From NCBI GenBank assembly GCA_001917585.1, contig MNEG01000069.1, positions 1-43,003 on the forward strand: a DNA stretch of 43,003 nt. Reading direction: 5' to 3'. A program made the position numbers and the translations under genes. This DNA comes from Candidatus Rokubacteria bacterium 13_1_40CM_68_15 (lineage in GTDB: Bacteria; Methylomirabilota; Methylomirabilia; Rokubacteriales; CSP1-6). The notes under the pieces are model-generated. The model was given only the letters and a program-made list of their open reading frames with translations. It was not told the DNA's origin and did not search any database. Position 1 is the stretch's first letter. Every line of letters begins with the position of its first letter. Shown piece after piece: positions 24,588 to 41,486 of this stretch.

Positions 24588-24622
24588 AGTATTGATCGGA
24601 CGAGGTTTCCAGAGGTCCGGAA
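24588..24622 (-). promoter_or_regulatory. Repeated bipartite element, copy 1 (upstream of SDR gene)
   Basis: TTCCGGACCTCTGGAAACCTCGTCCGATCAATACT on minus strand; ends 84 bp before the SDR start. Confidence 0.6.
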
Positions 24623-24725
24623 GCGGTGTCCCGTCGACGCGTCTCACGCGTGCAGCTACGGTCACGCGCTGGTATGTCGCTTGCTGTCCCTCAGGGCCGT
24701 CATGAGCAGCTCTCGGAGAGTGATA

Positions 24726-25109
24726 ATGACCGCTGCAGTCGCCGCGCTCGTCGTCGCGGCAGGCATCTCCGCGGTATCGGCGCAGACCGAGTGGAAGGCT
24801 CCCCCAGAGGCAAAGAACATCAAGAACCCGCAGCCGCCGACGCCGGCCAGCATCGCCAATGGAAAGAAGCTCGCGGAAGCGAACTGCGTGAGCTGCCACG
24901 GTCCGGGCGGGAAGGGTGATGGCCCCGCCGCCGCCGCGCTGCCACCTCCGAAGCCCGCGGACTGGACGTCTCCGAAGATCAAGGCCGAAACCGACGGTGA
25001 GCTGTTCTGGAAGATCTCCAACGGTCGCGGCGCGATGCCGCCCTGGAAACACCTGCCGGAGAAGGACCGCTGGGACCTGGTCAACTACATCCGCAGCCTG
25101 CAGAAGTAA
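24726..25109 (+). CDS. c-type cytochrome
   Basis: Signal peptide; NCVSCHGPGGKGDGPAA heme motif; GRGAMPPWKHLPEKDRWDLVNYIRSLQK. Confidence 0.92.
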   Translation: MTAAVAALVVAAGISAVSAQTEWKAPPEAKNIKNPQPPTPASIANGKKLAEANCVSCHGPGGKGDGPAAAALPPPKPADWTSPKIKAETDGELFWKISNGRGAMPPWKHLPEKDRWDLVNYIRSLQK

Positions 25110-25116
25110 TAACGCG

Positions 25117-26211
25117 TCAGTGCCAGCGTAGAAGCAGGCTCCCGTCATCGCTCGCCTCGACCTGCGATCGGAACTCCAGGCTGATGCGGGCGAGCCTGTC
25201 TCTCAGCCACATGGCATCCGGAGGCGCGGCCCGGTTCAGTCTCAGTTTTCGCAGCTGCATCGGCGTCATCCGCAGCTCGCTGAGCTCGCCGCTGGCCGCG
25301 TCGAAGGTCGGGAAATACATGAGCGTGAGGTCGGCCCGGTACTCCTCGTGCCCGAAGATTCCCTCGTAGTCGTTGATGAAGTCGCCGCAGCCGTAGAGGA
25401 TCAGCCGGTTGCCATAGACCTCGATCGGACGCGGGTGATGCGACGAGTGGCCGTGGACGACGTCGATGCCGCCGTCGATGAGCCGGCGCGCAAAGCGCAC
25501 GTGCGCGGGCGGCACCTCGTATCCCCAGTTCGTGCCCCAGTGGATCGACGCCACCGTGACGTCTCCGCTCCGTTTCGACCGTCCGACACGGGCCGCCACG
25601 GCGGCCGCCGTCTCGTCGGAAAGATCGGACAGGAGGTCGACTCCGGCGAGGTCGTCCGTGGCGGCCCAGCCCGGAGGAATTCCGCTCGTTTCGGTTCCGG
25701 TGCCATGCACGACGACGCGCCGATCGTCCGCCAGATCGACCACGGCCGGGGCTCGGGCTTCCGCGAGCGTTCGGCCCGCGCCAGTCTTCGTGAGCCTGGC
25801 GCGATCGAGTGTCTCCAGTGTCTCGAGCAGGCCGACCGGACCGTAGTCCAGCACGTGATTGTTGGCGAGGACGCACACGTCGATCCCGGCGACGATCAGG
25901 CAAGCCACGTTCGCCGGATGCATACGATAGTTGATGCCCTTGGGCCACGCGTCCTCGCTGCGCGTCACGCTCGTTTCGAGGTTCACGATGCGCGCGGCCG
26001 GCGCGACATGCGTCAGCTCGTCGAGCGCGTCTCCCCAGATGTACGACGGCGCGACCGGACGCGGCACGGAGCCGTTGACGTCCTCCGCGAGCGCGACGTA
26101 CATCCGGGCGTCACGGACGACCGGCTCATAGATCCGGGGAGGGCTCGGATGAGGCAGGATCTGGTCGATCCCTCGTCCGGTCATGACGTCGCCGCACAGG
26201 AAGAAGGTCAC
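25117..26211 (-). CDS. CapA family protein (poly-gamma-glutamate synthesis-type metallophosphoesterase fold)
   Basis: FFLCGDVMTGRGIDQ, IVNLETSVTRS, VCVLANNHVLDYG, SIHWGTNWGYEVPP, VHGHSSHHPRPIEVYGNRLILYGCGDFINDYEG. Confidence 0.92.
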   Translation of the reverse strand: MTFFLCGDVMTGRGIDQILPHPSPPRIYEPVVRDARMYVALAEDVNGSVPRPVAPSYIWGDALDELTHVAPAARIVNLETSVTRSEDAWPKGINYRMHPANVACLIVAGIDVCVLANNHVLDYGPVGLLETLETLDRARLTKTGAGRTLAEARAPAVVDLADDRRVVVHGTGTETSGIPPGWAATDDLAGVDLLSDLSDETAAAVAARVGRSKRSGDVTVASIHWGTNWGYEVPPAHVRFARRLIDGGIDVVHGHSSHHPRPIEVYGNRLILYGCGDFINDYEGIFGHEEYRADLTLMYFPTFDAASGELSELRMTPMQLRKLRLNRAAPPDAMWLRDRLARISLEFRSQVEASDDGSLLLRWH

Positions 26212-26233
26212 GAGCGCCGCCGGTCGCGCGGTG

Positions 26234-27193
26234 TCAGAGCCGCCGGAGCTTCGGTCCGAGCTCCTGCTCCCAGAAGCGCAGGAAGCCCTCCTGATCCGGT
26301 CCAACGCCGATGACGACGATGTGATCGAATCCCGCGTCGACGTACTTGCGGACGGCGGCGACGTGCCGCTCGGCATCCGGCCCGCACGCGACGTACTGCG
26401 CCACGTCCTGCGGCCGGACCCAGCGCGTGGCTGCCTCGAATCCGTCGGGACGCGGGAGCTCGGCCATGACCTTCCAGCCAAGGGCGGCGAAGCGGAAACG
26501 CTCGTACGCGATGCGCACGGCCTCCGCTTCGTCGGGTGCCCAGCAGAGGGCGACCTCCGCGAACAGCCCGCCCTTGCCGCCGGCATGCTTCCACGTCTCG
26601 ATCAGCTCGTGAAGTGGCTCGGTGGCGAACAGGCCGGCCGCCTTTTCGCCTGCCAACTGCGCCGCCTTCGGACCGCCGGCGGCCACGGCGAGCGGCGGTG
26701 GCGACTCCGGGACGTCCCAGAGCCTGGCGCGGTCGACGATGACGTGCGCACCCTCGTAGGACACCGTGCCGCCCTCGAACAGGAGCCGAATAATGTCGAT
26801 CGCCTCCGCGAGCATCTGGTGGCGGGTCTCCGGCGATGGCCAGCCGACGCCGACGACATGTTCGTTGAGGTGCTCCCCCGCACCGAGCCCGAGAGTGAAG
26901 CGCCCGCCGCTCAGCACGGCCAGTGTCGCGGCGAACTGCGCGACCACCGCGGGGTGGTAGCGGATCGTCGGGCACGTGACGGCGGTAGCGAGGCCGAGTC
27001 GGTCGGTGCCCGCCGCGATCGCGCCGAGCACGGTCCACGCCAGCGGCGAGTGGCCCTGGCTATATAGCCAAGGATCGTAGTGGTCGGAGATCGCCGCGAA
27101 GTCGAATCCTGCCTTTTCGGCCCTGCACGCGTTGCGCACGAGCTCGCACGGGCCGTGCTCCTCGCTCATGAGCTTGTAACCGTAGGATGTCAT
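26234..27193 (-). CDS. F420-dependent LLM-class oxidoreductase (TIGR03557/G6PDH-type family)
   Basis: YKLMSEEHGPCELVRNACRAEKAGFDFAAISDHYDPWLYSQGHSPLAWTVLGAIAAGT; GVGWPSPETRHQMLAEAIDIIRLLFEGG. Confidence 0.92.
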   Translation of the reverse strand: MTSYGYKLMSEEHGPCELVRNACRAEKAGFDFAAISDHYDPWLYSQGHSPLAWTVLGAIAAGTDRLGLATAVTCPTIRYHPAVVAQFAATLAVLSGGRFTLGLGAGEHLNEHVVGVGWPSPETRHQMLAEAIDIIRLLFEGGTVSYEGAHVIVDRARLWDVPESPPPLAVAAGGPKAAQLAGEKAAGLFATEPLHELIETWKHAGGKGGLFAEVALCWAPDEAEAVRIAYERFRFAALGWKVMAELPRPDGFEAATRWVRPQDVAQYVACGPDAERHVAAVRKYVDAGFDHIVVIGVGPDQEGFLRFWEQELGPKLRRL

Positions 27194-27312
27194 GCGTGGA
27201 GTGGCAGCAAGGCCGGTACCATCGGGGGAGCCGCGGCGGTTGTCAGTTCGCCTACCGCGCCACTGTGGGTCGGCCGCCGCGACGCCAGCGTTCCCGCTCG
27301 CGTCTTCGGCGT

Positions 27313-28242
27313 TCAACGAGCGTGTTCTTCGCGTCGGTTCGTTCTAGTTGGCAGCGGTGCTTCTATGCGGCCCAGGCGCCTGCTGAGCCATTGCGCCTCA
27401 TCGTCGAAATGCACGGCTCGAGCGAAGTCGAGCAGCTTCTGGTAGCGCTCGGTAATGTCAAAGCCGATGCTGTAATGGAGTTTCCGCAAATCCACCGGAC
27501 ACAGGTGCATGGGCCGCCGGTCGCTCTCCTCCAGATGATTCGACCCGTTCATCAGGCACTTGAAGTAAATGCAGTGGTGGATGCCGAACATGTGGCTCGT
27601 CTCGTGAGCCAAGACCTTGCAGCTCCGCCGCAGGAGCACGTGATCCCGATCGCTGCTGTCGATGCCATAGAACGCCGGGTCGTAGCGGGCAAAACTGTAT
27701 ACCCCGACGCGGTCGCGCAATGACGCCTCGCCGAAGGCGAAATTCCAGGCGGGCCCGGGGTAGAGGTCACGCATCGTCATCGCGACCACGCAGAACGCGT
27801 CCTCGGGCAGGTGCTCGACGAGCAGTCGGAGAATGTCGCGCGTAAGGAGCTGTTCGTGGTGAGTGTAAGGGTTGATGCGTCTCGTGATCCGCCGCGAGGA
27901 TGTGGCCAGCTCCGGCAGCAGGTTCGCGTTCATCGCGAAGAAGGCCTCCGTGAATTGCACGAGCCTGTCGATGGGCGGCACGCTGGAGCTGTGCAAGTAA
28001 TCCAACAGTTGTAAATAGATGGTGTTCCGCAGGGCATCGGGTCCGTTCGGTCGGGATCTCACGAAGTCGAGAAAGGTCTGGCCGGGCTCGTCGTGAACGG
28101 CGAGCCAATCGTTGGGTCCCGGAAGCGGAATCGGCTCGAAGTCGCCGTTGGGTAAGAAGGCTCGCCGCAGATCCTCAGAGAGCCCCTCCAGTGGCCCGAT
28201 GGCGTGCCACGCGTCTTTCTCGCTCGGGGGATTGAACCTCAT
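27313..28242 (-). CDS. Archaemetzincin-like zinc metalloprotease
   Basis: HETSHMFGIHHCIYFKCLMNGSNHLEESDRRPMHLCPVDLRKL matches HExxHxxGxxH plus the Cys-rich archaemetzincin signature; ATGA overlap with the upstream nitroreductase. Confidence 0.9.
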   Translation of the reverse strand: MRFNPPSEKDAWHAIGPLEGLSEDLRRAFLPNGDFEPIPLPGPNDWLAVHDEPGQTFLDFVRSRPNGPDALRNTIYLQLLDYLHSSSVPPIDRLVQFTEAFFAMNANLLPELATSSRRITRRINPYTHHEQLLTRDILRLLVEHLPEDAFCVVAMTMRDLYPGPAWNFAFGEASLRDRVGVYSFARYDPAFYGIDSSDRDHVLLRRSCKVLAHETSHMFGIHHCIYFKCLMNGSNHLEESDRRPMHLCPVDLRKLHYSIGFDITERYQKLLDFARAVHFDDEAQWLSRRLGRIEAPLPTRTNRREEHAR

Positions 28243-28781
28243 GCGAACTCGGCACGATCCTTCCATCGCTCGTAGTGGATGATGTGCTCCTTGCTGAGCC
28301 GGGGCAGCTTTTGTGGACGCTCCGCACAGAAGCCGATGGGGATGATACCGATCGGCCGCACAGCCTTGGGCAAGCCCAGCACTGCCCGTACCTCGTCGTC
28401 GTCGAATGCGCCCACGAACGCGGCGCCCAGGCCTGCGTCGACCGCGGCCAGCATGATGAGCAACGAAGCAAACGCTCCGTCCACGATGCTGTAAAATTTT
28501 TCGCCGCGTTCGCCGTAGCGAGCCTTCGATCGCCTCGTGTCGGAGACTACCACGATCACCACAGGCGCCTCGGCAAGGTAGAACTGATCCAGCGCGGCTC
28601 TCGCGAGCTGGTATTTCGTGTCCTCGCTTCTGATGACAATGAACTCTTGCGGCTGAGTATGGCCGGCGGAAGGGAAACGAACTGCCAGATCCAGGATCCG
28701 ATCGAGCACCTCGTCCGGCACGTCACGATCTTCGTAGCTCCGGCACATGAAACGCTTTTTCACGATCTGTGCGAATTCCAC
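28239..28781 (-). CDS. Nitroreductase family protein
   Basis: VEFAQIVKKRFMCRSYEDRDVPDEVLDRILDLAVRFPSAGHTQPQEFIVI; GLGAAFVGAFDDDEVRAVLGLP. Confidence 0.9.
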   Translation of the reverse strand: MEFAQIVKKRFMCRSYEDRDVPDEVLDRILDLAVRFPSAGHTQPQEFIVIRSEDTKYQLARAALDQFYLAEAPVVIVVVSDTRRSKARYGERGEKFYSIVDGAFASLLIMLAAVDAGLGAAFVGAFDDDEVRAVLGLPKAVRPIGIIPIGFCAERPQKLPRLSKEHIIHYERWKDRAEFA

Positions 28782-28872
28782 GAGAAGAGCCTCCGGATAT
28801 CTCGCTGCGCGTTTCTTGCCTTCGTGCAAAAACGGCGTAGGAGCTTGACACGCCCGCGCCAGCGCCGCCGTT

Positions 28873-29436
28873 CTACCTCTTCTGCACCGTCCCGACCAGT
28901 TCTCCTTTCGCCAACACGTGCCCGGACATCGCCTCAGCGAGGGTGTGCCGATCGACGCCTGGGGGCAGTCGCAGCTTGGTGCCGAGGGCGAAGATCTGGA
29001 AATGGTAATGGTGCGGAGGATCACCCTTGGGAGGCCGAGGGCCGAAGTAACCGATGGATCCTCGGGAGTTCACCCCGTGGAGCGCGCTGGGAGGGTCGTC
29101 GAGCCGCGGCTCGTCAGGGATCGCTTCCGGAAGGCTCGTTGTGTCCGGCGGAATGTCGTACATCAGCCAGTGTACGAACGGCTCCCGCATCGGCGCGTCC
29201 GGGTCCTCCATGATGAGAACCAGCGAACGGGTGCCCGGCGGGACGCCGTTCCAGCTGAGCGGAGGTGAGATCCCCTCGTCGTAGGCGGTGAATCGGTCGG
29301 GAATCCTCTGCCCCGGCTCGAAGGCGCTTGAACGTACCTGTATGCTGGCCGGGGCCTCGGCCCCCAGCTCTTGGACGGCCACGTTGCCGCCGCCCTGGCT
29401 TCGTCGTCTGTAGTTCGCTGGCATTGTCGCTCTCAC
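28873..29436 (-). CDS. YbhB/YbcL family Raf kinase inhibitor-like (PEBP) protein
   Basis: GISPPLSWNGVPPGTRSLVLIMEDPDAP...FVHWLMYDIPP...YFGPRPPKGDPPHHYHFQIFALGTKL. True start may be 29424. Confidence 0.92.
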   Translation of the reverse strand: MRATMPANYRRRSQGGGNVAVQELGAEAPASIQVRSSAFEPGQRIPDRFTAYDEGISPPLSWNGVPPGTRSLVLIMEDPDAPMREPFVHWLMYDIPPDTTSLPEAIPDEPRLDDPPSALHGVNSRGSIGYFGPRPPKGDPPHHYHFQIFALGTKLRLPPGVDRHTLAEAMSGHVLAKGELVGTVQKR

Positions 29437-29438
29437 GC

Positions 29439-30233
29439 CTACGCGACGGCGAGCAGCGGCCCTTCCGGAGCTCGGTCCTGGAGACGCACGTTCTTGGCGT
29501 GCCGCGGCAACGCGACGACCTTGGTCCGTTCCACCCAGCGCGCGGGCAGCGTGTAGGTTGTCGAGTTGCGCCGGGCGCGGGTCGGACCCAGTCGCTCTTC
29601 GTACCGCACGACCACGCCGTACACTCGCTTACCCGTCCGAGTGACAGCCGTCTGGGGCGCTTCCACCCTGATGCGCCGGGCGCTCCGCGGGAAATACAGT
29701 CGTTTCACGCGCGTGCGCAGCTGGATGGCACCCGTCCGCAGTGGCTGTGGCGAACGATAGACGAGGTACTTCACTTTGCCCCCGCCGGAGTAGCGGGCCG
29801 TCGTCGGCTTGTAGTGGATCCTGACGCGGCTCGTCTGACGGGTCCCCCCGCGGCGCGCTGCATACCGGGCGGTACCGTGGCTCGGCCTCTCGTGGGTCGC
29901 CCGGCGGCGAGGCTCGTTCGGTCCCCACGGGTCGTAGTCTGCGTCCCAGCCGTGCTGCGCGGCGACCCGGTTGGCGTGCTCCACCGTCTTGCGGTTCTCT
30001 TCCATCGCCACGCGGCGAAGGGCGCGCACCTTCTCTCCGAACCGCTTCCTCCACGTGGGGGAGTGTGTCAGCGTGCAGAGATAATCACTGCGCTTCTTCA
30101 GCTCCGTCAGCTCCTCGCGCATGGTGACCGCGTCCATCTCTTTGCGGATGATTCGGTTGATCCTCCGGATGTCCTCCGCCGAGTTCACCTCACCGTAAAT
30201 ATGACCGAACGCTTTCTTGCTTGTCCGCGCCAT
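29439..30233 (-). CDS. Hypothetical basic protein
   Basis: MARTSKKAFGHIYGEVNSAEDIRRINRIIRKEMDAVTMREELTELKKRSDYLCTLTHSPTWRKRFG; ATG at 30233; long clean ORF upstream of PEBP. Confidence 0.7.
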   Translation of the reverse strand: MARTSKKAFGHIYGEVNSAEDIRRINRIIRKEMDAVTMREELTELKKRSDYLCTLTHSPTWRKRFGEKVRALRRVAMEENRKTVEHANRVAAQHGWDADYDPWGPNEPRRRATHERPSHGTARYAARRGGTRQTSRVRIHYKPTTARYSGGGKVKYLVYRSPQPLRTGAIQLRTRVKRLYFPRSARRIRVEAPQTAVTRTGKRVYGVVVRYEERLGPTRARRNSTTYTLPARWVERTKVVALPRHAKNVRLQDRAPEGPLLAVA

Positions 30234-30361
30234 GGGAACCTTCCTTCCTCGGCCAACGCGGCTACGCGCCCCCGCACAAGATGCCGTTGCCGGGCGAACT
30301 CCTGCATCGAAGAGTTTCAGCCCACCATGGGTATTCTTGGCCGCCGTATGGTCTCGCACGC

Positions 30362-30396
30362 AGTCTCGATCAAGCAGGATGTCCGGGGGTCCGGAA
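30362..30396 (-). promoter_or_regulatory. Repeated bipartite element, copy 2
   Basis: TTCCGGACCCCCGGACATCCTGCTTGATCGAGACT on minus strand, 129 bp before the start at 30233. Confidence 0.6.
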
Positions 30397-30563
30397 CATG
30401 TGTCCGATCAACCCGGGGTCCGCGATTCCGTTCGCGCGCCGGTTGAAGAACTTTCGTGAGCGCGTGGCGAACTGGACGCGCCCTCGACTCACGGGCCCCG
30501 CCATTGCACGAACGCGCCCCGAATGTGGCCGGCGCCGACACCAGAAGCCAAAGGAGGTCGACG

Positions 30564-30788
30564 ATGCTGACGAACGCGACGTACAACCTGATGGAGACAG
30601 CCTCGGTGCTTTCGAAGGGTCTCTATCGCTACGAGATCTTCAAGAAGGATTCGCAGAGCTGCCAGCGGTGCCAGCAGATCTGGGATCAGATGCGACAGGC
30701 CGACGAGGAGCAGCTGGCGCTCCTCGTGTCGCACCTGCGCGAGCACTTGGACCAAGAGCAGGTCGCAAAGCGAATGGCGGCGGCTTGA
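30564..30788 (+). CDS. Small hypothetical protein with CxxC
   Basis: MLTNATYNLMETASVLSKGLYRYEIFKKDSQSCQRCQQIWDQMRQADEEQLALLVSHLREHLDQEQ; RBS aaaggagg 8 nt upstream. Confidence 0.75.
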   Translation: MLTNATYNLMETASVLSKGLYRYEIFKKDSQSCQRCQQIWDQMRQADEEQLALLVSHLREHLDQEQVAKRMAAA

Positions 30789-30889
30789 GGACGACACCGC
30801 GACCGGAGCGCGCGCTCCCGGTCGCGAACCACGCGAGCACGGCCGCGGGATGTCGCCTCGACGAGGAGAACAGGACGATCAGACACACC

Positions 30890-30924
30890 TTCCGGACTCC
30901 GAGACAGTTCGCCCCGTCGATACT
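30890..30924 (+). promoter_or_regulatory. Repeated bipartite element, copy 3 (upstream of BON gene)
   Basis: TTCCGGACTCCGAGACAGTTCGCCCCGTCGATACT on plus strand, 93 bp before the start at 31017. Confidence 0.6.
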
Positions 30925-31016
30925 GCGGACAGGCAGCGCCCCACCAGTATCCACCTCAGCCAGGCGCCAACACACTACCGAGGCACTGGGCGTCCTCGAT
31001 GAAAGGAGACACAGTC

Positions 31017-31550
31017 ATGGCAACCGCGACCGCGGTCCGAAGCGAGGCCCGAACCGATGAAGATATCCAGAGGGACGTGCTGGCGGAGCTGAAATGGGAT
31101 GCCCGCGTTCAGCCCAACGAGATCGGCGTCAGCGTCAAAGACGGTGTCGTCACGCTCACCGGCGTGGTCGACTCCTACAGCAAGCGCTGGGCGGCCGAGG
31201 ACGCCGCCCACCGCGTCCGCGGCGTGAAGGCCGTGGCCAACGACATCGAGATCCGGCTTCCCAGCTCGGCCGAGCGCACCGACACCGACATCGCCGCGGC
31301 CGCCGTTCGGGCGCTGGAATGGGACGCCTTGATCCCCACTGAGAAGCTCGACGTCACGGTCTCCAAGGGGTGGGTCACGCTCAGAGGTGAGGTGGAGTGG
31401 CAGTTCCAGAAGGAAGACGCCGAGCGGGTCGTCCGCCGTCTGTCGGGCGTCAGAGGCGTGACCAATCTGATCACCGTCAAACCCCGCCTCACGCCCCCGC
31501 CGTCGCCGCAGCCGTGCCCCGAATCAGCAGATCATAGATCTTCTGGTTGA
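31017..31550 (+). CDS. BON domain-containing protein (two BON domains, probably C-terminally truncated)
   Basis: DEDIQRDVLAELKWDARVQPNEIGVSVKDGVVTLTGVVDSYSKRWAAEDAAHRV and a second BON repeat ending GVRGVTNLITVKPRLTP. Confidence 0.9.
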   Translation: MATATAVRSEARTDEDIQRDVLAELKWDARVQPNEIGVSVKDGVVTLTGVVDSYSKRWAAEDAAHRVRGVKAVANDIEIRLPSSAERTDTDIAAAAVRALEWDALIPTEKLDVTVSKGWVTLRGEVEWQFQKEDAERVVRRLSGVRGVTNLITVKPRLTPPPSPQPCPESADHRSSG

Positions 31551-31650
31551 CGAAGTCGCTGTAGCGCTCGAGGTCATTCTTATCGACATCCAGACCTGCC
31601 GCGACGCGGAAGAAGCGCTCGAACTTCTTGATATTCATCACCGGCACCAT
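31489..31650 (-). CDS. Truncated DUF1931-like (histone-fold-related) protein, 53 aa
   Basis: Not in the supplied ORF list. MVPVMNIKKFERFFRVAAGLDVDKNDLERYSDFVNQKIYDLLIRGTAAATAGA*, preceded by ggaggag; resembles the N-terminus of DUF1931 proteins. Confidence 0.75.
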   Translation of the reverse strand: MVPVMNIKKFERFFRVAAGLDVDKNDLERYSDFVNQKIYDLLIRGTAAATAGA

Positions 31651-31695: not shown

Positions 31696-32379
31696 TCAGG
31701 CTGCCTGTGCCTGGACCAGGTAGCGTTCGAACCACTCTCGCGCGAGCCGGGCCACCTGCTCCAGCGCGCCGGGCTCCTCGAACAGATGCGTTGCGCCGGG
31801 GATGATCACGAGTTGCTTCTCAGAACGGAGCTCCGCGAGCGCCTGCCGGTTCAGCTCGATGACGAGCTGATCCTGCCCCCCGACGATGAGCAGCGTCGGA
31901 GCTCGGACACGGGCGAGGGCCGGCCTGGCGAGGTCGGGTCGTCCGCCACGCGAGACGACGGCGCCCACGACGCCGGGTCGCTCCGCTGCCGCCACGAGCG
32001 CCGCCGCGGCGCCGGTGCTCGCGCCGAAATAGCCGATCCGGAGCTGTCGCGTCTCCGGGTACTCGGTGAGCCAATCCGTGGCAGCGATCAGCCGCTCGCC
32101 GAGCAACCTGATGTCGAACCGCAGGTGTGCCGTGCGCAGGTCGATCGCCTCTTCGGCCGGCGTGAGTAAGTCCAGCAGGAGCGTCGCGAGCCTCGCTTCA
32201 TTGAGAAGCCCGGCCACGTAGCGATTGCGAGGACTGTGCCGGCCGCTACCGCTCCCGTGGGCGAAGAGGACGACGCCGCGCGCGCCCCGGGGCAGGCGCA
32301 GGTCGCCTTCGAGCATCGCCGCGCCGGCCCTGATACGAACCGGGCGCTCGTCCTCACTCCGGTCGACGGGCGCTGCCAT
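31696..32379 (-). CDS. Dienelactone hydrolase-like alpha/beta hydrolase
   Basis: GVVLFAHGSGSGRHSPRNRYVAGLL, IGYFGASTGAAAAL nucleophile elbow, GATHLFEEPGAL. Confidence 0.9.
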   Translation of the reverse strand: MAAPVDRSEDERPVRIRAGAAMLEGDLRLPRGARGVVLFAHGSGSGRHSPRNRYVAGLLNEARLATLLLDLLTPAEEAIDLRTAHLRFDIRLLGERLIAATDWLTEYPETRQLRIGYFGASTGAAAALVAAAERPGVVGAVVSRGGRPDLARPALARVRAPTLLIVGGQDQLVIELNRQALAELRSEKQLVIIPGATHLFEEPGALEQVARLAREWFERYLVQAQAA

Positions 32380-33726
32380 CTAAACTCCGAAGGGGAACGT
32401 CTCGGGAGGCTCGCCCGCGTCCCACACGGCCGTGCGCTCGAGTGGCTCCACCGCCCGCGTTTCGTCGAAGTGCATCACGGCATCGAACTGGAGGGACAGC
32501 CGCGCGTAGAAGTAGTGGCTCGCCCGCTCGGTGTCGGGACGGTAGATCACGCCGATCGCCCGCTCGAGCGCCGGAGCCAGCAAGCCCTCCCGAGCGCCAT
32601 CATGCCCGCGCCAGGCGAGCAGGAAGTTCGCGAGCCGCGTGTCGTGAAACGTCGCCTCGTAGCTGTCGGGGAGTGCGGGTCTGACGCGTTTGCGCTCGGC
32701 GGGGCCGTCCCAGTCCGAGGCGGCCGTGACGCTGCCATGGTGCGTGGTGAAGCCGACCAGCACGGCGTCGTCACCGTAGCGCTCGCGCACGAGTTGCCCC
32801 ACGTTCAACTCGCCCCGCCGGCTCATCTCCGTGGCGCGCGCGTCGCCCAGGTGCGAGTTGTGCGCCCACACGGCGATCTTCGCACGCCCGACCTGACGAC
32901 CGAGATGGGCGAGGAGCGCCTCGAGTGTCTCGATCATGTGGCGGTCGCGCACGTTCCACGAGGAGACCTCCTCGAGGAAGACCGAGCGATAGTACGCCTC
33001 GGCATTCTTCACCACCCGGGCGTTCTGCTCGGCGTTGAACCGGTCGTCCTCGCTTTCATGGCCGTCGCGTCGCGCGTCGGCGGCGGCACGACGTCGGAGG
33101 TCGACGAGTTCGGCGACCACCTCCTCCTCGCACGACTTGGTCACGCCGGTGCCCGTCAGGAACCCGTAGACCTGGGTGTTGTCGCTGAACTGATCGAAGC
33201 AGGCGTACCGGGCCCGCGCCCGGTTCGCCGCCTCGGGATCGATTCTGTCGAGATACCGGAGGACCGCCTCCATCGAGGCGCGGAGGCTGTAGAGATCCAG
33301 GCCGTAGAATCCGACCTTCGGGGCCCCCCGCGGTCGCCCGTCGTTGTGCGCCCGCAGCCACTCGACGAACTCGACGACATCGGTGTTGCGCCACATCCAG
33401 TTCGGGAAGCGGCGGAAGTCGACGAGCGCTTCCCGGGCATCGACGTCGCCGCTCGCGGCGCGCACGTAGCGGTTGACGCGGTAGGCGTCGGGCCAATCGG
33501 CCTCCGCCGCGACGGCCGTGAATCCCTTCTCCTCGATGAGCCGGCGGGTGATGCGGGCCCGCTCGCGATAGAACTCGTGGGTGCCGTGGGGCGCCTCGCC
33601 GAGCAGGACGAGTCGCGCATCCCCCACGAGGTCGGCGAGCGGATCGTAGTCGTGGGCCGGTCCGCTCAGCGGACGCGCCGCGGCGCGCACCGCCTCGATG
33701 AGCGTAGCCTCGGTCGTTCGGCGCAT
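32380..33726 (-). CDS. Erythromycin esterase-like family protein
   Basis: ARLVLLGEAPHGTHEFYRERARITRRLIEEKGFTAVAAEADWPDAYRVNRYVR; KIAVWAHNSHLGDARATEM. Confidence 0.93.
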   Translation of the reverse strand: MRRTTEATLIEAVRAAARPLSGPAHDYDPLADLVGDARLVLLGEAPHGTHEFYRERARITRRLIEEKGFTAVAAEADWPDAYRVNRYVRAASGDVDAREALVDFRRFPNWMWRNTDVVEFVEWLRAHNDGRPRGAPKVGFYGLDLYSLRASMEAVLRYLDRIDPEAANRARARYACFDQFSDNTQVYGFLTGTGVTKSCEEEVVAELVDLRRRAAADARRDGHESEDDRFNAEQNARVVKNAEAYYRSVFLEEVSSWNVRDRHMIETLEALLAHLGRQVGRAKIAVWAHNSHLGDARATEMSRRGELNVGQLVRERYGDDAVLVGFTTHHGSVTAASDWDGPAERKRVRPALPDSYEATFHDTRLANFLLAWRGHDGAREGLLAPALERAIGVIYRPDTERASHYFYARLSLQFDAVMHFDETRAVEPLERTAVWDAGEPPETFPFGV

Positions 33727-33810
33727 GGTTGCCTCTCTCGCGGTGACAATCACCGCCTGCGTCACTGCGACTCTATGCTTCTGGAGATAAATCCTGAGCG
33801 GTCTGAGGAA

Positions 33811-33845
33811 AGTCTGGATGACGCAGGGTGTCCGACGGTCCGGAA
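33811..33845 (-). promoter_or_regulatory. Repeated bipartite element, copy 4 (upstream of erythromycin esterase-like gene)
   Basis: TTCCGGACCGTCGGACACCCTGCGTCATCCAGACT on minus strand, 85 bp before the start at 33726. Confidence 0.65.
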
Positions 33846-33891
33846 GTGGACTCAGGTCCGCCGGTTCGTGGGCGCGTGTCCGAGGGCCCGA

Positions 33892-34812
33892 TCAGGTCAG
33901 TTCGGGTAGCGGCTGCCGCTCGGTCCAGAAATCTGCCCACGGGTCAGGATCGGCCGGCCTCAGACGAAACGTCCGCAGATTGTACTGCGCAGGATCGAGG
34001 CCCGGATCGACCTCCGGCCAGGCGAGTGGCGTGGAGACCGGCGCCCTCGGCCGACGGCGCACCGAGTACGGCGACGCGATGGTCTGTCCGAAGGCATTGC
34101 GCAGCGCATCCGCGAAGACGCGCCCCTGCCGCCTGGCCGGCGACATCTCGGTCGTCACCAGCGCGGGCGCACGCGCGGCCATCATGCGGCCGATCCGTTG
34201 CGCGAACACGCGGACCTCGGTCTGCGTGGGGCCGAGACGCAGGGGCACCAGGACGTGGAGCCCGCGGCCTCCCGACGTCTTCGGATACGAGTGGATGCGC
34301 AACTCATCGAGGATCGTTCGCAGCAGGAGGCCGGCTCGGGCAGCATCCGCGAACACTCCGGAGCTGGGATCCAGATCGAAGGCCATCCAATCCGGCTTCT
34401 GCAACGACCGCCGCCGACAGTTCATCAGGTGGATGGTGATGCACCCGAGATTCACCAGGCTGAGCAGCGTCTTTCTGGAGCCGCCGACGACGTAGCGCAC
34501 GGTACGTCCGGTGCTGCCAGCGACGATCGGAATCGTCGGGACACCGGGCGGCAGGCCGCGAGAAAAGTCCTTCTGAAAGAAGCATGCCCCCAGCATGCCG
34601 TCCGGGCAGCGTTCCGCGACGAGCGGCCGCTCCTTCATCCATGGCAACAGGCGCGGTGCGATGTCGGCGTAGAAACGGATGACCTCGAGCTTGGCGATAC
34701 CTTCGTCCGGCCACCAGAGCTTATCCGGATGGCTGACCGTCACGCCCATCACCTTGACGCTGTCGCGCGCGGGCGGTGTCGCCAATGCCGAGCGGTGGTG
34801 GCTAGAGCTCAC
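33892..34812 (-). CDS. LigD-type polymerase (PolDom, AEP primase) as a stand-alone protein
   Basis: SHPDKLWWPDEGIAKLEVIRFYADIAPRLLPWMKERPL, DWMAFDLDPSSG, KTSGGRGLHVLVPL. Start GTG 34812 or ATG 34749. Confidence 0.9.
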   Translation of the reverse strand: MSSSHHRSALATPPARDSVKVMGVTVSHPDKLWWPDEGIAKLEVIRFYADIAPRLLPWMKERPLVAERCPDGMLGACFFQKDFSRGLPPGVPTIPIVAGSTGRTVRYVVGGSRKTLLSLVNLGCITIHLMNCRRRSLQKPDWMAFDLDPSSGVFADAARAGLLLRTILDELRIHSYPKTSGGRGLHVLVPLRLGPTQTEVRVFAQRIGRMMAARAPALVTTEMSPARRQGRVFADALRNAFGQTIASPYSVRRRPRAPVSTPLAWPEVDPGLDPAQYNLRTFRLRPADPDPWADFWTERQPLPELT

Positions 34813-35731
34813 GGGCGCTCCAGGTGCATTCCGAGGGATCCTTGTCGTGCCGCAGACCCAGGAACACCGGCTGGCGCAGCTTGCCGTCGGCGGTCCACTC
34901 GGTGAACGAGACCTGCGCCACCAGCTCGGGCCGGACCCAGGTGACGCCGGCCACGCGGGGCACGAGCAAGAACGGCGACTTGTCAGTTTGCAGGGGACGC
35001 AGCCGTGCGGCCAGATCGGCGAGCATCTTACGAGAGAAGCCCGTGCCGACCTTGCCGACGAACCGCAGGGCCGGCCCGTCGAAGAGGCCGAGGAGCAGCG
35101 CACCGAAATGCTCGCGCAGCCCGCTGGGGGCCGTGAAGCCGCCGATGACGAACTCCGCCTCGTTGCGGCACTTCACCTTGAGCCAGCTGCGCGAGCGCCG
35201 GCCGGGCTCGTATGTGGAGGCGTCGTCCTTGGCGATGATGCCCTCCCAGCCACGTCTGCGCGCGATCCGGTAGGCGGTGAGTCCATTGCGCGGCAGCCGG
35301 CGTGCCTGCATCAGGACGCCGCGGTGCACCGGGACCAGGGTTTCGACCGCGCGACGGCGTTCGGTCAGCGGCCGCTCCAGCAGTCCGGCGGCATCACGCT
35401 CCAGGCAGTCGAAGACGGCGAAGACGGGGTGGATGGGCTCGCCGAGCGACCGGCGCTGCAAGAGCTGGAAGCGAGAGACGCCCTGGCGGTCGAACGCCAC
35501 GATCTCCCCATCCAACACGAAGGGGCTGTCCGAGAGGCCGGTGACGGCCTCGGCGATCTCTGGGAACTCGCCGGTGATCTCCTTGAGGTTGCGCGAATAG
35601 AGACGGGTCCCCTCGCGGCGGCGGTAGGCGAGAGCGCGGACGCCGTCGTACTTTTCCTCGTAGATCCAACCCGCCCGGTGGAACGGCTTCGGCACCAGCG
35701 TCGCTAGCATCGGCGCGATCAACCCTATCAT
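34802..35731 (-). CDS. ATP-dependent DNA ligase (LigD ligase domain) as a stand-alone protein
   Basis: APMLATLVPKPFHRAGWIYEEKYDGVRALAYRR (KxDG nucleotidyl-lysine motif); EGIIAKDDASTYEPGRRSRSWLKVKC. Confidence 0.93.
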   Translation of the reverse strand: MIGLIAPMLATLVPKPFHRAGWIYEEKYDGVRALAYRRREGTRLYSRNLKEITGEFPEIAEAVTGLSDSPFVLDGEIVAFDRQGVSRFQLLQRRSLGEPIHPVFAVFDCLERDAAGLLERPLTERRRAVETLVPVHRGVLMQARRLPRNGLTAYRIARRRGWEGIIAKDDASTYEPGRRSRSWLKVKCRNEAEFVIGGFTAPSGLREHFGALLLGLFDGPALRFVGKVGTGFSRKMLADLAARLRPLQTDKSPFLLVPRVAGVTWVRPELVAQVSFTEWTADGKLRQPVFLGLRHDKDPSECTWSAREL

Positions 35732-36357
35732 CGCCGGCGCGTGCGCCGGGGCGGATCGCCCGACGCCGCCTTGACGACGTCGCCCCCCTCGTCAGCCGCA
35801 ATCTGCGCGAGCGTGCGCCCGGTCAGCACGGACTTCGGGGCGGCTGCGCTGATGTCCTTGCTCGAGGCGTAGCGGTCCCGTAACTTGATCAACAGCCAGT
35901 GGCGGCCGCGGAGGCGGATGAGACTCCAACGTCCCTTGAGCTTCCGGCCATGGAGGGTGAACGTGAGCTGGCCCTTCCGCAGGGCGTCTGCAACGTCCGT
36001 TCCGTTGTTCGGCTCGTACGTACCGCGATCCCACACCATCACCGTGCCGGCGCCGTACTCGCCCTCTGGGATGACGCCCTCGAACTCCGCATAGTCGACG
36101 GGGTGGTCCTCCACCGCCACGGCAAGCCTCTTGACGGACGGGTCGAGCGAAGGGCCCTTCGGGACCGACCAGGACTTCAACACACCCCCTATTTCGAGTC
36201 GGAAGTCGTAGTGAAGCTGGCGGGCTCGGTGCTTCTGGACCACGAAGAGGTGGCGCGAACTCGAGCTTCGGCGCCGGGGCAAAGGCTCAGGCGTCCTCTC
36301 GAAGCGCCGCTTCGCCCTGTAGGGCCCGAGCCCGCCTGACCGCAAATCGTCAAAGGC
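35728..36357 (-). CDS. LigD 3'-phosphoesterase (PE) domain as a stand-alone protein (start uncertain)
   Basis: YRAKRRFERTPEP, FVVQKHRARQLHYDFRLEIGGVLKSWSVPKGPSLDPSVKRLAVAVEDHPVDYAEFEGVIPEGEYGAGTVMVWDRG; ATGA overlap with the ligase start. ORF track extends to 36474, but that part crosses the repeated element. Confidence 0.85.
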   Translation of the reverse strand, partial: AFDDLRSGGLGPYRAKRRFERTPEPLPRRRSSSSRHLFVVQKHRARQLHYDFRLEIGGVLKSWSVPKGPSLDPSVKRLAVAVEDHPVDYAEFEGVIPEGEYGAGTVMVWDRGTYEPNNGTDVADALRKGQLTFTLHGRKLKGRWSLIRLRGRHWLLIKLRDRYASSKDISAAAPKSVLTGRTLAQIAADEGGDVVKAASGDPPRRTRRR

Positions 36358-36380
36358 CTTGCGTCGGCCGCCTCGCCGAG

Positions 36381-36416
36381 AGTATCGATCGGCGCGAGGT
36401 ATCCGGTAATCCGGAA
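36381..36416 (-). promoter_or_regulatory. Repeated bipartite element, copy 5 (upstream of split ligD operon)
   Basis: TTCCGGATTACCGGATACCTCGCGCCGATCGATACT on minus strand. Confidence 0.65.
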
Positions 36417-36564
36417 GTGGTGCCCGATCGACCGCAAGCCGTGGACCTTCGCGACTTGAAGGCTCGGGGCACACGCCTTGCTGCCTTATCCCTCCTCGAG
36501 CCGAACAGGGGGAGACCCCTGATAGCCATCAACGCTTGTTCTCTGACGAATTGCGGAGACGAAC

Positions 36565-37356
36565 ATGCCACGGAATCAACCGCGACGATCATCACCAGAA
36601 GCCGCCGTGCACGTCCTCGAACGCGGCAATATCTACTTCTTCTACAGGCCGAGGGTCGGGAAGGAGACCGCGAGGGGATTTGCCGATGTGCAGCGCCTGT
36701 ACATGGTTCTCAGTCCGCGCGGCAACAAGTCCTATCGTCTCATCATCATCGGCGAGAAGCGTCTGCCGGCGGTCACCAGGGAAGGCGATCGGATATCGTG
36801 GGGCTTCGTCGACGTGGTTGCCAGCCGGGCGGAAGAGCTGGAGGACGAGCTCGACCCCGAAACCTACACGACGAAGACGCGCGGGGAGCGCCAGCGGCCC
36901 GCTGCTCGCCCCGCCGGCGAGGGCGTGTACGCGATCGTGCGCCACGTCGACCATACGCACCTGGCCTACGCCTTGGAGTTGCCGCCCAAGCCCGGCGAGG
37001 TGCAGCGGGTGCTGAATATCGGCGAGGAAGGTAGTTACATCATCAGCGTGAAGAATCCGGACACGCCTTCTCCGCCCGGCATGGGACTCGACGAGGCACG
37101 CCGAGCCACCTTCCCCAAAGACTTGGAGGAGCGCTTCAGGGGTCGCCGGTTCATCCCCGTCGATCCACCGGACTTCCTGAACTATGAGGGCGCCGAGATC
37201 CTCCTGATTGGGGCGAGCCAGGACGTCTACGAGGAGCTCGGCTTGCGCCTCAACCGGCAGCGGGAGACGGAGGCGACGGCGGAGATCTTCAGAGACCTGA
37301 GGATCGAGAAGTCGCTGCATCCCATCACGCCGCTCTTCAAGGGGACGTGGGCGTAG
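36565..37356 (+). CDS. Uncharacterised protein, divergent from the ligD-like operon
   Basis: 263 aa; VHVLERGNIYFFYRPRVGKETARGFADVQRLYMVLSPRGNKSYRLIIIGEKRLPA; clean ORF. Confidence 0.8.
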   Translation: MPRNQPRRSSPEAAVHVLERGNIYFFYRPRVGKETARGFADVQRLYMVLSPRGNKSYRLIIIGEKRLPAVTREGDRISWGFVDVVASRAEELEDELDPETYTTKTRGERQRPAARPAGEGVYAIVRHVDHTHLAYALELPPKPGEVQRVLNIGEEGSYIISVKNPDTPSPPGMGLDEARRATFPKDLEERFRGRRFIPVDPPDFLNYEGAEILLIGASQDVYEELGLRLNRQRETEATAEIFRDLRIEKSLHPITPLFKGTWA

Positions 37357-37374
37357 GGTCTCGCTGCTGAGACG

Positions 37375-37995
37375 ATGCGGCTGCCGGCGCGTCTCTCCCC
37401 GAAACCCCGCATTCTCTTCGTCGGCATCAACCCGAGCTTGACATCGGCGCGTGTCGGTCATCACTTCGCCGGGCCCGGCAATCCGTTCTACCGCCTGTTG
37501 CACGCCGCCGGCTTGGTCCCTGAGCCGCTGACGTTCGTGGATGATGTTCGCCTCCCCGAGTTCGGACTCGCCCTCACCAACCTCGCCGAGCGGGCGACAC
37601 GCGAAGCGGCGGAGCTGACGGCGGCCGACTACGCCCGCGGTCGCGAGCGCCTGGCCCGGATGATCGCGAGGATCAAGCCCGCGGTCGTCGCGTTCGTGGG
37701 TGGCACGGCGTACCGACGGTTCTTCGGCCGCTCCGTGAGCGCCGGGCCCGGGGCCAAGCCGGAGCGGATCGCCGGTGCAGCCGTCTTCGTGGTGCCCAAC
37801 CCCAGCGGTCATAACGCCGCCTATCCCGGCTTCAAGGACAAGCTCGTGTGGTACCGACGCCTCAGGCGCTACGTTGAACAGATCCGCCAGCCCGATCATC
37901 GCCGGGGAATGCCAGCTCGCTCCCGAATTGTGTGCCGGACGGTCTCGATGGGGCCCTCGCCGCTCACGGTGTCAAGCAACCCGCGCCCGCGGTAG
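37375..37995 (+). CDS. mug: Mismatch-specific DNA glycosylase (MUG/TDG family)
   Basis: ILFVGINPSLTSARVGHHFAGPGNPFYRLLHAAGL; VVPNPSGHNAAYPGFKDKLVWYRRLRRYV. Confidence 0.92.
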   Translation: MRLPARLSPKPRILFVGINPSLTSARVGHHFAGPGNPFYRLLHAAGLVPEPLTFVDDVRLPEFGLALTNLAERATREAAELTAADYARGRERLARMIARIKPAVVAFVGGTAYRRFFGRSVSAGPGAKPERIAGAAVFVVPNPSGHNAAYPGFKDKLVWYRRLRRYVEQIRQPDHRRGMPARSRIVCRTVSMGPSPLTVSSNPRPR

Positions 37996-38546
37996 TAGTC
38001 GAGCAGCGGCCTCGTCTGGCGACCGTACACATCGAGCCGTTTCCGGACCGTTTGTTCGCGATCATCCTCGCGCTGGTAGAGCTGACCTCCACAGCTGTCG
38101 CACACGCCCGTCCGCTGCGGGGGACTGGAAGCATCGAGGGTCGTGCCGCAGGCGCCGCATACCCGCCGCGCCGTGAGCCGCCGCAGTAATTCGGGCTCGC
38201 TGACGTCGACGTTCACGACGTGCTCCAGCGACTGCCCCAGCGCCTCCAGGAAGCGGTCGAGCGCCTGCGCCTGCGCGATCGTGCGCGGAACGCCCTCGAG
38301 GACGAAACCCCGGGCAGCGTCAGGCCGACCGAGCCTGTCGGCCACCAGCCGGATGATCGCCTCGTCGGGCACGAGCTCTCCGGAGTCCATGTAGCCCTTG
38401 GCCTCACTGCCGAGCGGCGTGTCCGCCGCCACCGCTTCCCGGAGCATGTCGCCGGTCGCGACGTAGGGCACACTCCACTCGCGTGCCAGCTCACGCGCAT
38501 GGGTGGTCTTGCCCGCGCCCGGAGGTCCGAGGAAGGCGACCCTCAT
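37896..38546 (-). CDS. adk: Adenylate kinase with Zn-binding LID
   Basis: MRVAFLGPPGAGKTTHARELA (Walker A); GFVLEGVPRT; LID CGACGTTLDASSPPQRTGVCDSCGG. Confidence 0.95.
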   Translation of the reverse strand: MRVAFLGPPGAGKTTHARELAREWSVPYVATGDMLREAVAADTPLGSEAKGYMDSGELVPDEAIIRLVADRLGRPDAARGFVLEGVPRTIAQAQALDRFLEALGQSLEHVVNVDVSEPELLRRLTARRVCGACGTTLDASSPPQRTGVCDSCGGQLYQREDDREQTVRKRLDVYGRQTRPLLDYYRGRGLLDTVSGEGPIETVRHTIRERAGIPRR

Positions 38547-38574
38547 CGGCGACTCATCCTTTTCTTCGTCGCCG

Positions 38575-38609
38575 ATGATCGATCGGGCGAGGTGTCCGGT
38601 GGTCCGGAA
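38575..38609 (-). promoter_or_regulatory. Repeated bipartite element, copy 6 (upstream of adk)
   Basis: TTCCGGACCACCGGACACCTCGCCCGATCGATCAT on minus strand, 29 bp before adk. Confidence 0.65.
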
Positions 38610-38636
38610 GTGGTGCGCGAGACGCCGGGGCACCAT

Positions 38637-38672
38637 TTCGAGACCTCAGGACACCAGACCTCGATCGATAGT
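38637..38672 (+). promoter_or_regulatory. Repeated bipartite element, copy 7 (diverged; upstream of DUF2267 gene)
   Basis: TTCGAGACCTCAGGACACCAGACCTCGATCGATAGT on plus strand, 7-8 bp before ATG 38680. Confidence 0.45.
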
Positions 38673-38679
38673 CGAGTCC

Positions 38680-39126
38680 ATGGCGACCACAGGGCTCGAC
38701 GTCTTCGACAGGACACTGCACAAGACACATGGCTGGCTCAATGACCTGATGCGCGAGCTCGGCTGGCAGGAGAAGCATCGAGCTTATCTCGCGCTACGAG
38801 CCACGCTCCACGCATTACGCGACTGGATGACGATCGAGGAAGTCGCACAGCTCGGAGCACAGCTCCCGATGCTCATCCGCGGCTTTTACTACGACGCCTG
38901 GGATCCGACCGGAAAACCGGTTCGAGAGCGCCGTAAGGAGGAGTTCCTCGGTCGGATCGCACAAGAGTTCAGAGGCGGCGAGCGCATCGATCCCGAACCC
39001 GTCGCCCGCGCCGTCTTCGCGGTGCTCGAACGGCGGATCACCGAAGGAGAGATCGAAGACGTCAAGCATGTCTTGCCCGCCGAAATCCGCAGCCTCTGGC
39101 CAGAGGCACACCAGGGCGCTGCGTGA
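38680..39126 (+). CDS. DUF2267 domain-containing protein
   Basis: FDRTLHKTHGWLNDLMRELGWQEKHRAYLALRATLHALRDWMTIEEVAQLGAQLPMLIRGFYYDAWDP. Confidence 0.93.
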   Translation: MATTGLDVFDRTLHKTHGWLNDLMRELGWQEKHRAYLALRATLHALRDWMTIEEVAQLGAQLPMLIRGFYYDAWDPTGKPVRERRKEEFLGRIAQEFRGGERIDPEPVARAVFAVLERRITEGEIEDVKHVLPAEIRSLWPEAHQGAA

Positions 39127-39163
39127 GCGCCTGATCCTCCCCGCCCGATGATCGTGGCCGCGC

Positions 39164-39793
39164 GTGATCCTTCTCGCGTTGCCAGCGGCCGTGCTCGCGA
39201 CACTCCATGAGTTCTTCGTCACATTCTTCCCACTCTTCGTCGCGATCGACATCGTCGGGCTGCTGCCGATCTATCTCAGCGCGACGTCCAGCGTCGCCGA
39301 AAGCGAGCGACGGTCCATCGTGGTGGATGCAACGGTGACCGGAGGCATGGTCGGTCTCGGCTTCATGCTCATCGGAGATACCGTGCTGCACGTCCTCGGT
39401 GTGACGGTCGGCGACCTTCAGGCGGCCGGTGGCATCCTGCTGCTCGTCCTCGCGGTGTACAACCTCCTTCATCCGGATCAGCCGTTACGCCGCGCGAGCG
39501 GCCGTATCGGCGTCATGCCCCTCGGGGTGCCGATGATCGTCGGTCCCGCGGTCCTGACGACGCTTCTCGCGCTCGCCCGCAGCCGCGGCTACGTCACGAC
39601 TGGCGTGGCCTTTCTGGTCAACCTGGCCTTCGTGTGGGCGGTATTGCGGTGGGCGTTCTTCATCGAGCGCTCGATCGGTGAGGCCGGCGCACAGGCGGTG
39701 GCGAAAGTCTCGAATCTCTTGTTGGCGGCCATTGCGGTCATGATGATCCGCATCGGCATCCTGACTGCGCTGAGCGAGGCCAGGTCGGGGTGA
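39164..39793 (+). CDS. MarC family membrane protein
   Basis: FFVTFFPLFVAIDIVGLLPIYLSATSSVAESERRSIVVDATVTGG; GVMPLGVPMIVGPAVLTTLL. Confidence 0.92.
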   Translation: MILLALPAAVLATLHEFFVTFFPLFVAIDIVGLLPIYLSATSSVAESERRSIVVDATVTGGMVGLGFMLIGDTVLHVLGVTVGDLQAAGGILLLVLAVYNLLHPDQPLRRASGRIGVMPLGVPMIVGPAVLTTLLALARSRGYVTTGVAFLVNLAFVWAVLRWAFFIERSIGEAGAQAVAKVSNLLLAAIAVMMIRIGILTALSEARSG

Positions 39794-39807
39794 CAGAGGA
39801 GCCAGGC

Positions 39808-40308
39808 ATGGCCCGCGGCGTGTTCGAAGTCGACGTGCCTCACACGAGCGTCCACCGCGTGGCCCGGCGCTTTGTCGAGCCGGTCCAGGACATCCTGGTG
39901 GTTGGGGTCGCGCTGGCGCTCTTCGGGCTGATGCTTCGCACGCTGGCCCGGTTGCTTCGCGAGCTGTTCACGTCCACGCTCGACTTCCGAGTGGTCATTG
40001 CCGAGGTCCTCTTCATGCTCGTGATGGTCGAGGTTGTGCGGCTACTGATTATCTACCTCCAGGAGCACCGGATTGCCGTGGATTTCATGGTGGAACTCGG
40101 GATCGTGGCGACTCTGCGCGAGGTCGTGTTGCGCGGGGCGGTCGAGCTGCGCTGGGAGCAGGTCGTCGCGCTGAGTCTCTTCCTCCTGGTGCTCGGTGCA
40201 CTGCTCCGCTTCGGCGATCTGCGTGCAAGCTCGCTGACTCAGTCAACGGAACCTCCGGGCGGCGTGGGCGACGCCGTCCAGCCGACGGACGACGTGTCGA
40301 GACGCTGA
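39808..40308 (+). CDS. PsiE-like (phosphate-starvation-inducible) membrane protein
   Basis: Multiple TM helices; LFMLVMVEVVRLLIIYLQEHRIAVDFMVELGIVATLREVVL. Confidence 0.82.
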   Translation: MARGVFEVDVPHTSVHRVARRFVEPVQDILVVGVALALFGLMLRTLARLLRELFTSTLDFRVVIAEVLFMLVMVEVVRLLIIYLQEHRIAVDFMVELGIVATLREVVLRGAVELRWEQVVALSLFLLVLGALLRFGDLRASSLTQSTEPPGGVGDAVQPTDDVSRR

Positions 40309-40383
40309 CCCAACAGAACTTGGAGCCGGGTCGCACCAGTTGCGCGTAGCGCTGGCCGATGAACACATGGATGTGCGCACTCG

Positions 40384-41325
40384 TCAGTGAGCGGCAGTCA
40401 CGCTCTCACGCTTCGCACCGGCGCTCCCCGCCGCTGCGAGGTCCTCCATCAAGCCGATGACGGCCGAGTAGTCTTCGCGCCGTCCGCGAGCATGTGCGAC
40501 GGCGCACAACTGCTGGGCGGCAGCGGTCACCGGCATCGGAACGCTCAGCTGCACCGCTTCGCGCACGATCAGCCCGAAGTCCTTGTACATCAGCGACAGG
40601 GCGAAGGCCACGGGGTAGACTCCGCGGCGCGCGTTTTCCAGCTTCCCTTTGTGGGCGGGCGCGACCACCGGCGTTTCGCTCAGCACGTCGAGCAAGCGAT
40701 CGCGGTCGAGACCGGCCTTCTCACCCAGCACGATCGCTTCGGCCAGCGCCTGCATGCCCGCGCCGAGCAGCGCATTGGCGACCAGCTTCATGGTGGCGCC
40801 CATCCCGCTGGCGCCGAGGTACGACGACGTGCCGAGCACGTCGAGCAGCGGCCGGCAGCCACGGTACGTCGCCTCATCGCCACCGACGAAGATGACGAGC
40901 TTGCCGGTCTCCGCCTGCGCGGTGCTGCCCGACACGGGCGCGTCGAGCACCGCCACTCCGCGTGCGCGGGCGGCCTCGGCGAGCCTCCGCGCAGTTGACG
41001 GTGCGATCGTGCTGAGATCGATGCAGACGGTACCGGGACGCGCAGCGGCCAGGATTCCATCGGGACCAAGGTAGACGTCCTCGACGGCGCGATCGTCAGC
41101 TAACGAGCTGAAGATGCAGTCGACGCCTCTGGCGAGTGCCCGCGGGGATTCGGCGACGGCCGCCCCATTGGCTTGCAGCGCTTCCGCTTTCGCCGAGGTA
41201 CGGTTATAGACCGTGAGCGAGTAGCCAGCGGTGAGCAACCGCCGCGCCATTCGGCTCCCCATCGCGCCCAGCCCGACGAACCCAATGCGCGTCTTCCTGG
41301 CTTCTGACGCGCTCGATTCGGACAT
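40384..41325 (-). CDS. NAD(P)-dependent oxidoreductase, 3-hydroxyisobutyrate dehydrogenase family
   Basis: RIGFVGLGAMGSRMARRLLTAGYSLTVYNRT; VLDAPVSGSTAQAETGKLVIFVGG; GASGMGATMKLVANALLG. Confidence 0.94.
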   Translation of the reverse strand: MSESSASEARKTRIGFVGLGAMGSRMARRLLTAGYSLTVYNRTSAKAEALQANGAAVAESPRALARGVDCIFSSLADDRAVEDVYLGPDGILAAARPGTVCIDLSTIAPSTARRLAEAARARGVAVLDAPVSGSTAQAETGKLVIFVGGDEATYRGCRPLLDVLGTSSYLGASGMGATMKLVANALLGAGMQALAEAIVLGEKAGLDRDRLLDVLSETPVVAPAHKGKLENARRGVYPVAFALSLMYKDFGLIVREAVQLSVPMPVTAAAQQLCAVAHARGRREDYSAVIGLMEDLAAAGSAGAKRESVTAAH

Positions 41326-41451
41326 CACGGATTCCTTGCGATGAGGCGGCGGGAAAATGGCCATCACCTCTCCCCTTCTTCAACGTCATCGGCGCGATTG
41401 CTTCGGTGCGTGCGGGCGCCGTGACTTCGCGCGAGCGGTCTGCCGGGGACA

Positions 41452-41486
41452 AGTGTCGACCGAGCATCGTGTCCGAGGGTCCTGAA
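41452..41486 (-). promoter_or_regulatory. Repeated bipartite element, copy 8
   Basis: TTCAGGACCCTCGGACACGATGCTCGGTCGACACT on minus strand, 127 bp before the start at 41325. Confidence 0.55.

Follow-up and report, generated by a model that had tools for sequence, protein, structure and literature searches.

The window considered here, a stretch of 43,003 nucleotides from Candidatus Rokubacteria bacterium 13_1_40CM_68_15 (contig MNEG01000069.1), carries eight copies of a directional element in front of genes for proteins as different as a BON protein, LigD and a DUF2267 protein, raising the question of whether these genes are controlled together and by what kind of regulator. A sequence-only reading had proposed a stress and DNA-repair regulon governed by a shared regulator or an alternative sigma factor. 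The shared regulator, the promoter position and the stress/repair gene set are supported, and the set extends to other contigs and other genera; the alternative sigma factor is not supported. As judged from sequence, the element is probably an operator for an AraC/XylS-type activator in sigma70-type promoters, with a Cupin_6-AraC protein as the candidate regulator.

Layout of the element and its copies in the window

All eight copies are present exactly at the coordinates and on the strands first reported, six of them measuring 35 nt and two 36 nt, and the region from 1 to 24 kb is indeed free of copies. The extent of about 35 nt was too short, since the unit recurs exactly 21 bp further upstream, so that half of the element had been missed. 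Sites in the own and in related genomes consist of two direct copies of a 19-bp unit, repeated with a period of 21 bp, the full form being NNCNGGACGATCGGRCACC - 2 nt - TTCCGGACCNYCGGACACC - 9 to 11 nt - GATACT, where the units are approximate and the last block is a -10-like hexamer. At a lag of 21, 10.7 of 19 positions are identical. Most other lags give about 4-7 and the internal lag of 8 gives 8, and shuffled upstream units reach no more than 7.6. The period-21 tandem repeat recurs in seven sites from other genomes. An inverted repeat, TCCGG-N4-CCGGA, had also been noted in the upstream half together with direct repeats; the inverted pair is less consistent than a direct GGAC-N4-GGAC, which lies inside each unit. 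Successive GGAC cores are spaced alternately by 8 and 13 bp, and a unit has two unlike halves.

The downstream half had been likened to a sigma70-family -10; the hexamer, 9-11 bp past the proximal unit, best keeps A2 and T6, as in ordinary sigma70 promoters, and varies at the other positions. About 38 bp are conserved upstream of this ordinary-looking -10. The start of the DUF2267 gene in the window, taken with the ribosome-binding site at C154, puts the -10 on the hexamer or close to it. The proximal unit would then span about -41 to -23 and cover the -35 position.

Every copy aims at a gene on its own strand, as had been stated, and a plausible start codon follows 43-165 nt after TTCCGG, the start of ligD being ambiguous. 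Site 1 (24588..24643 (-); distal unit 24625-24643, proximal unit 24604-24622, -10-like hexamer 24588-24593; 37.7 bits with a 38-bp matrix, also used for the scores below) precedes an SDR gene (23722-24504; Pfam adh_short). The predicted targets of site 2 (30362..30417 (-); distal 30399-30417, proximal 30378-30396, hexamer 30362-30367; 40.2 bits) are the gene at 29439-30233 followed by PEBP, nitroreductase and F420-type LLM genes, and site 3 (30869..30924 (+); distal 30869-30887, proximal 30890-30908, hexamer 30919-30924; 38.6 bits) faces a BON gene (Pfam BON) with an ATG near 31017 that is preceded by AAGGAG. Site 4 (33811..33866 (-); distal 33848-33866, weak, proximal 33827-33845, hexamer 33811-33816; 36.5 bits) is located upstream of genes for an erythromycin esterase (32380-33765), a hydrolase (31696-32379) and a DUF1931-like fragment, all assigned via Pfam. 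The highest score, 46.5 bits, belongs to site 5 (36381..36437 (-); distal 36419-36437, proximal 36398-36416, hexamer 36381-36386) at the split ligD genes (33892-36474 (-); Pfam LigD_N, ligase, Prim-Pol). LigD is encoded here by three separate genes, for phosphoesterase, ligase and primase-polymerase.

Site 6 (38575..38630 (-); distal 38612-38630, proximal 38591-38609, hexamer 38575-38580; 40.3 bits) is assigned to adk (37896-38546; Pfam ADK), the ATG of which lies 63 nt from TTCCGG. Site 7 (38616..38672 (+); distal 38616-38634, proximal 38637-38655, hexamer 38667-38672; 34.6 bits) is divergent from it and points at the genes for DUF2267 (ATG 38680), MarC and PsiE (Pfam). This ATG is only 43 nt from TTCGAG of the site and the mRNA would thus be nearly leaderless. 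The distal units of sites 6 and 7 overlap in antiparallel orientation, and it is therefore conceivable that both promoters share or compete for a regulator subunit. Site 8 (41452..41507 (-); distal 41489-41507, weak, proximal 41468-41486, hexamer 41452-41457; 32.6 bits) precedes a gene of the HIBADH family (40384-41367; Pfam NAD_binding_2/11).

Distribution of the element and a candidate regulator

The own genome (G000) is a MAG of 4.11 Mb in 174 contigs. A 33-bp matrix was built from the eight window sites; the main scan covered 1.66 Mb, all matrix scans together about 1.9 Mb, and the remainder was covered by pattern search. The matrix separates the copies from background: twelve sites score 28.7-41.0 bits in the 1.66 Mb, namely the eight in the window plus C154:14642, C154:20038, C164:9670 and C171:27430, followed by a tandem copy at C154:14695 (21.9 bits) and a lone match of 20.8 bits. 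The highest score was 18.6 bits in reversed sequence and 25.5 bits in 2 Mb of sequence simulated with an order-1 Markov model. A pattern search of the whole own genome returned nine matches versus none in controls, and a looser pattern added C162:15783. In total, 13 strong sites and one tandem copy are found on five contigs, a small set that is well separated from background. Matches at L067:2554, at L200:853 and in G036 are weak and probably due to chance, as are four matches from an exact-pattern scan of named GTDB contigs, all of which stem from unrelated organisms.

AraC proteins were sought only once the period-21 repeat had been seen. Three AraC-type proteins exceed the cut-off in the own genome, and the candidate, encoded at C83:4993-5919, combines the domains Cupin_6 and HTH_18. 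Strong orthologue matches within the order are present in G058 (62%), G043 (71% over the DNA-binding domain), G012 (62% over the DNA-binding domain) and G025 (38%, another family). In G012 about 250 bp separate the AraC-type gene from a motif copy in divergent orientation. The N-terminal part of the gene in G043 shares a 4.3-kb contig with two motif copies, and in G025 two copies 46 bp apart reside directly upstream of the gene at a contig end. When 95 genomes of the phylum were searched with an adjusted pattern, matches occurred only in G000, G001, G012, G043 and G025, apart from one probable chance site in G036, and controls gave none. The match in G025 is the sole one in that genome and is identical with the copy beside the AraC gene; as the pattern was partly shaped on the G025 sequence, it is the uniqueness of this match that is informative and not its discovery. 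Across 60 genomes, AraC gene and motif co-occur with p = 5e-5, or p = 4.9e-4 once the own genome is left out; the independent lineages are few. The segment MSRSVFAARF, the expected first recognition helix, is identical in four aligned orthologues including that of G025.

The association is not seen everywhere. Two good sites exist in G001, which has no close orthologue of the AraC gene; conversely, no site was found in G058, which does carry the orthologue. In the own genome the AraC gene resides on a different contig with no motif nearby. The G012 copy of the gene is broken and the G058 copy is shortened. A plasmid search brought up only distant Cupin_6-type AraC relatives (28-35% identical). 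The gene next to the candidate, encoding a receiver-like AraC protein, was rejected as regulator as it does not track the motif. The candidate gene lies between this gene and one for a hybrid histidine kinase, overlapping both (L118:4244-7948), and may thus be tied to a two-component system.

The best named NCBIfam match of the candidate is RclR, the Cupin_6-AraC activator of the hypochlorite response in E. coli, with which it shares Cupin_6 and HTH_18. At 76.5 bits against an equivalog cut-off of 400 (92.6 bits for the G025 orthologue) it is not an RclR equivalog, and the predicted target set is much broader than rclABC. In RclR, Cys21 and Cys89 form an activating disulfide (PMC7464077). The candidate has Cys27 and Cys99 near these positions and the G025 orthologue has Cys20 and Cys112; the C-terminal pair aligns and the N-terminal region is gapped. 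With cysteines near the RclR positions, a thiol-redox signal is a reasonable guess and no more. The motif now has a named candidate regulator, in a lineage represented here by draft genomes alone.

Proposed mode of action and competing explanations

Tandem operators of the AraC/XylS family, as known for XylS at Pm, for MekR and for AraC half sites, resemble the element in that two half-sites follow head to tail with a period of 21 bp and in that each half-site has a pair of blocks spaced by roughly one helical turn; they are placed at the -35, a position that the proximal unit would cover here (PMC4514859; PMC5481539). The XylS operator reads TGCA-N6-GGNTA-N6-TGCA-N6-GGNTA (PMC4514859; PMC5481539) and that of MekR CACC-N5-CTTCAA-N6-CACC-N5-CTTCAA (PMC4514859), both with a 21-bp period. 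The sequence found here differs, and at least 13 promoters in front of stress genes contrast with one or few promoters and catabolism in the known cases. It is common for AraC-family activators to serve just one or a few operons, for catabolism or virulence. Most likely the element is the operator of an AraC/XylS-type stress regulon of a known kind, the breadth of targets being what is unusual.

We picture an AraC/XylS-family operator that would replace or cover the -35 region of a sigma70-type promoter. Two Cupin_6-AraC subunits would bind the two head-to-tail units and recruit RNA polymerase, and all targets would thereby be switched on together, in a predicted regulon that is probably of the class-II activator type. 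Stress of a protein-damaging, redox or low-oxygen kind might be the signal, given that genes for HSP20, DnaK, BON, DUF2267, NHEJ (LigD), adk, DoxX and formate dehydrogenase are among the targets. Put most specifically, a thiol-redox-sensing AraC protein distantly related to RclR would act as master activator of a regulon for protein quality, repair and low oxygen, and would stand in for the -35 by occupying about -62 to -23; this full version is tentative and more doubtful than not.

AraC/XylS sites lie farther from the -10 than the proximal unit does here (9-11 bp), a spacing that resembles PhoB boxes more than AraC/XylS sites, so that an OmpR-type regulator is possible. PhoB boxes occupy the place of the -35 and stop some 10 bp short of the -10, and both this distance and the head-to-tail layout would fit units bound by an OmpR/PhoB-type response regulator as two tandem dimers. 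We nevertheless consider this unlikely: half-sites of the PhoB type have a period of 11 bp, in contrast to the 8/13-bp alternation of the GGAC cores and the unlike halves of the unit, and the gene seen to travel with the motif, in a survey centred on AraC-type proteins, is of that type. An alternative sigma factor reading a two-block promoter (TTCCGG... and CGATACT) would explain the constant spacing to the -10-like block and the orientation towards genes. It is very unlikely given that conservation as a period-21 tandem repeat extends over about 38 bp, beyond any -35 and -10 blocks, and thus looks like an activator site, and given that the -10 retains the A2 and T6 of ordinary sigma70 promoters.

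Regulators of the LuxR/NarL type were considered first and set aside once the direct repeat had appeared. Four such proteins (GerE) exceed the cut-off in the own genome, and the kinds of targets, i.e. heat-shock proteins, nitroreductases and redox or anaerobic enzymes, overlap with those of the DosR/DevR and OsdR regulons (PMC5069765). These regulons combine a palindromic box with a NarL-type response regulator, in contrast to the direct tandem repeat and AraC-type candidate found here. The OsdR box is the palindrome AGGGCCGATCGGCCCT (PMC5069765), which does not match the element; an inverted-repeat (FNR- or DosR-like) reading was rejected as less consistent than the direct repeat, and none of the GerE proteins was noticed next to a motif copy. 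A NarL-type dormancy regulator acting at palindromic boxes is therefore highly improbable. The least credible explanation is a small dispersed repeat (REP- or MITE-like) devoid of any regulatory role: eight copies do crowd a single 17-kb stretch, yet they are alike only at motif positions, each faces a nearby gene start, and the arrangement recurs in other genera with diverged flanks. Activation of the stress/repair set by one AraC-type regulator is most likely, and the stress response appears to be undescribed; we found no literature on this gene set.

Predicted target genes in the own genome and in relatives

Outside the window, predicted targets in the own genome encode DUF2267, a PRPP-synthetase-like protein, erythromycin esterase and hydrolase; an HSP20, baeRF10 and a further HSP20; DoxX; a protein judged by eye to be BON-like; and a formate-dehydrogenase-like protein. 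Among related genera, the motif precedes genes for BON and dnaK in G043 and for DUF1931 and dnaK in G012, and a thioredoxin-like gene occurs in the motif clusters of both. Of 60 genomes, G001 alone has a homologue of the protein encoded at 29439-30233, and its gene is likewise located behind a motif copy. Going by family names, the targets would form a stress, protein-quality and redox set. If one compact AraC-type regulon does join chaperones, NHEJ repair and redox enzymes with the functionally unassigned DUF2267, BON, DUF1931 and erythromycin-esterase-like families, these families would acquire a shared context.

The genes for erythromycin esterase, hydrolase and DUF2267 form paralogous sets in the window (31696-39102) and on contig C154 (10591-14613), as if an island had been duplicated; the two DUF2267 proteins are 70% identical. 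DUF2267 was tried and dismissed as an island marker: its homologues in relatives share only about 30-37% identity, and none was seen to have the motif close by. Many genes of the set look internally deleted or shortened, i.e. those for DUF1931 (31489-31650(-)) and BON (30999-31550(+)) in the window, the homologue of 29439-30233 in G001 (L187:634-963), AraC and dnaK in G012 (L185), a receiver in G043 (L183, about 3400-3700(-)) and the AraC cupin in G058 (L207:1486-2223(-)). Decay, real deletion or metagenome assembly error may be the cause. The formate-dehydrogenase-like gene behind the C162 site (L188:15778 and downstream) shows an apparent in-frame TGA stop after ENQARI, and selenocysteine is expected at such an in-frame stop position in formate-dehydrogenase-type enzymes.
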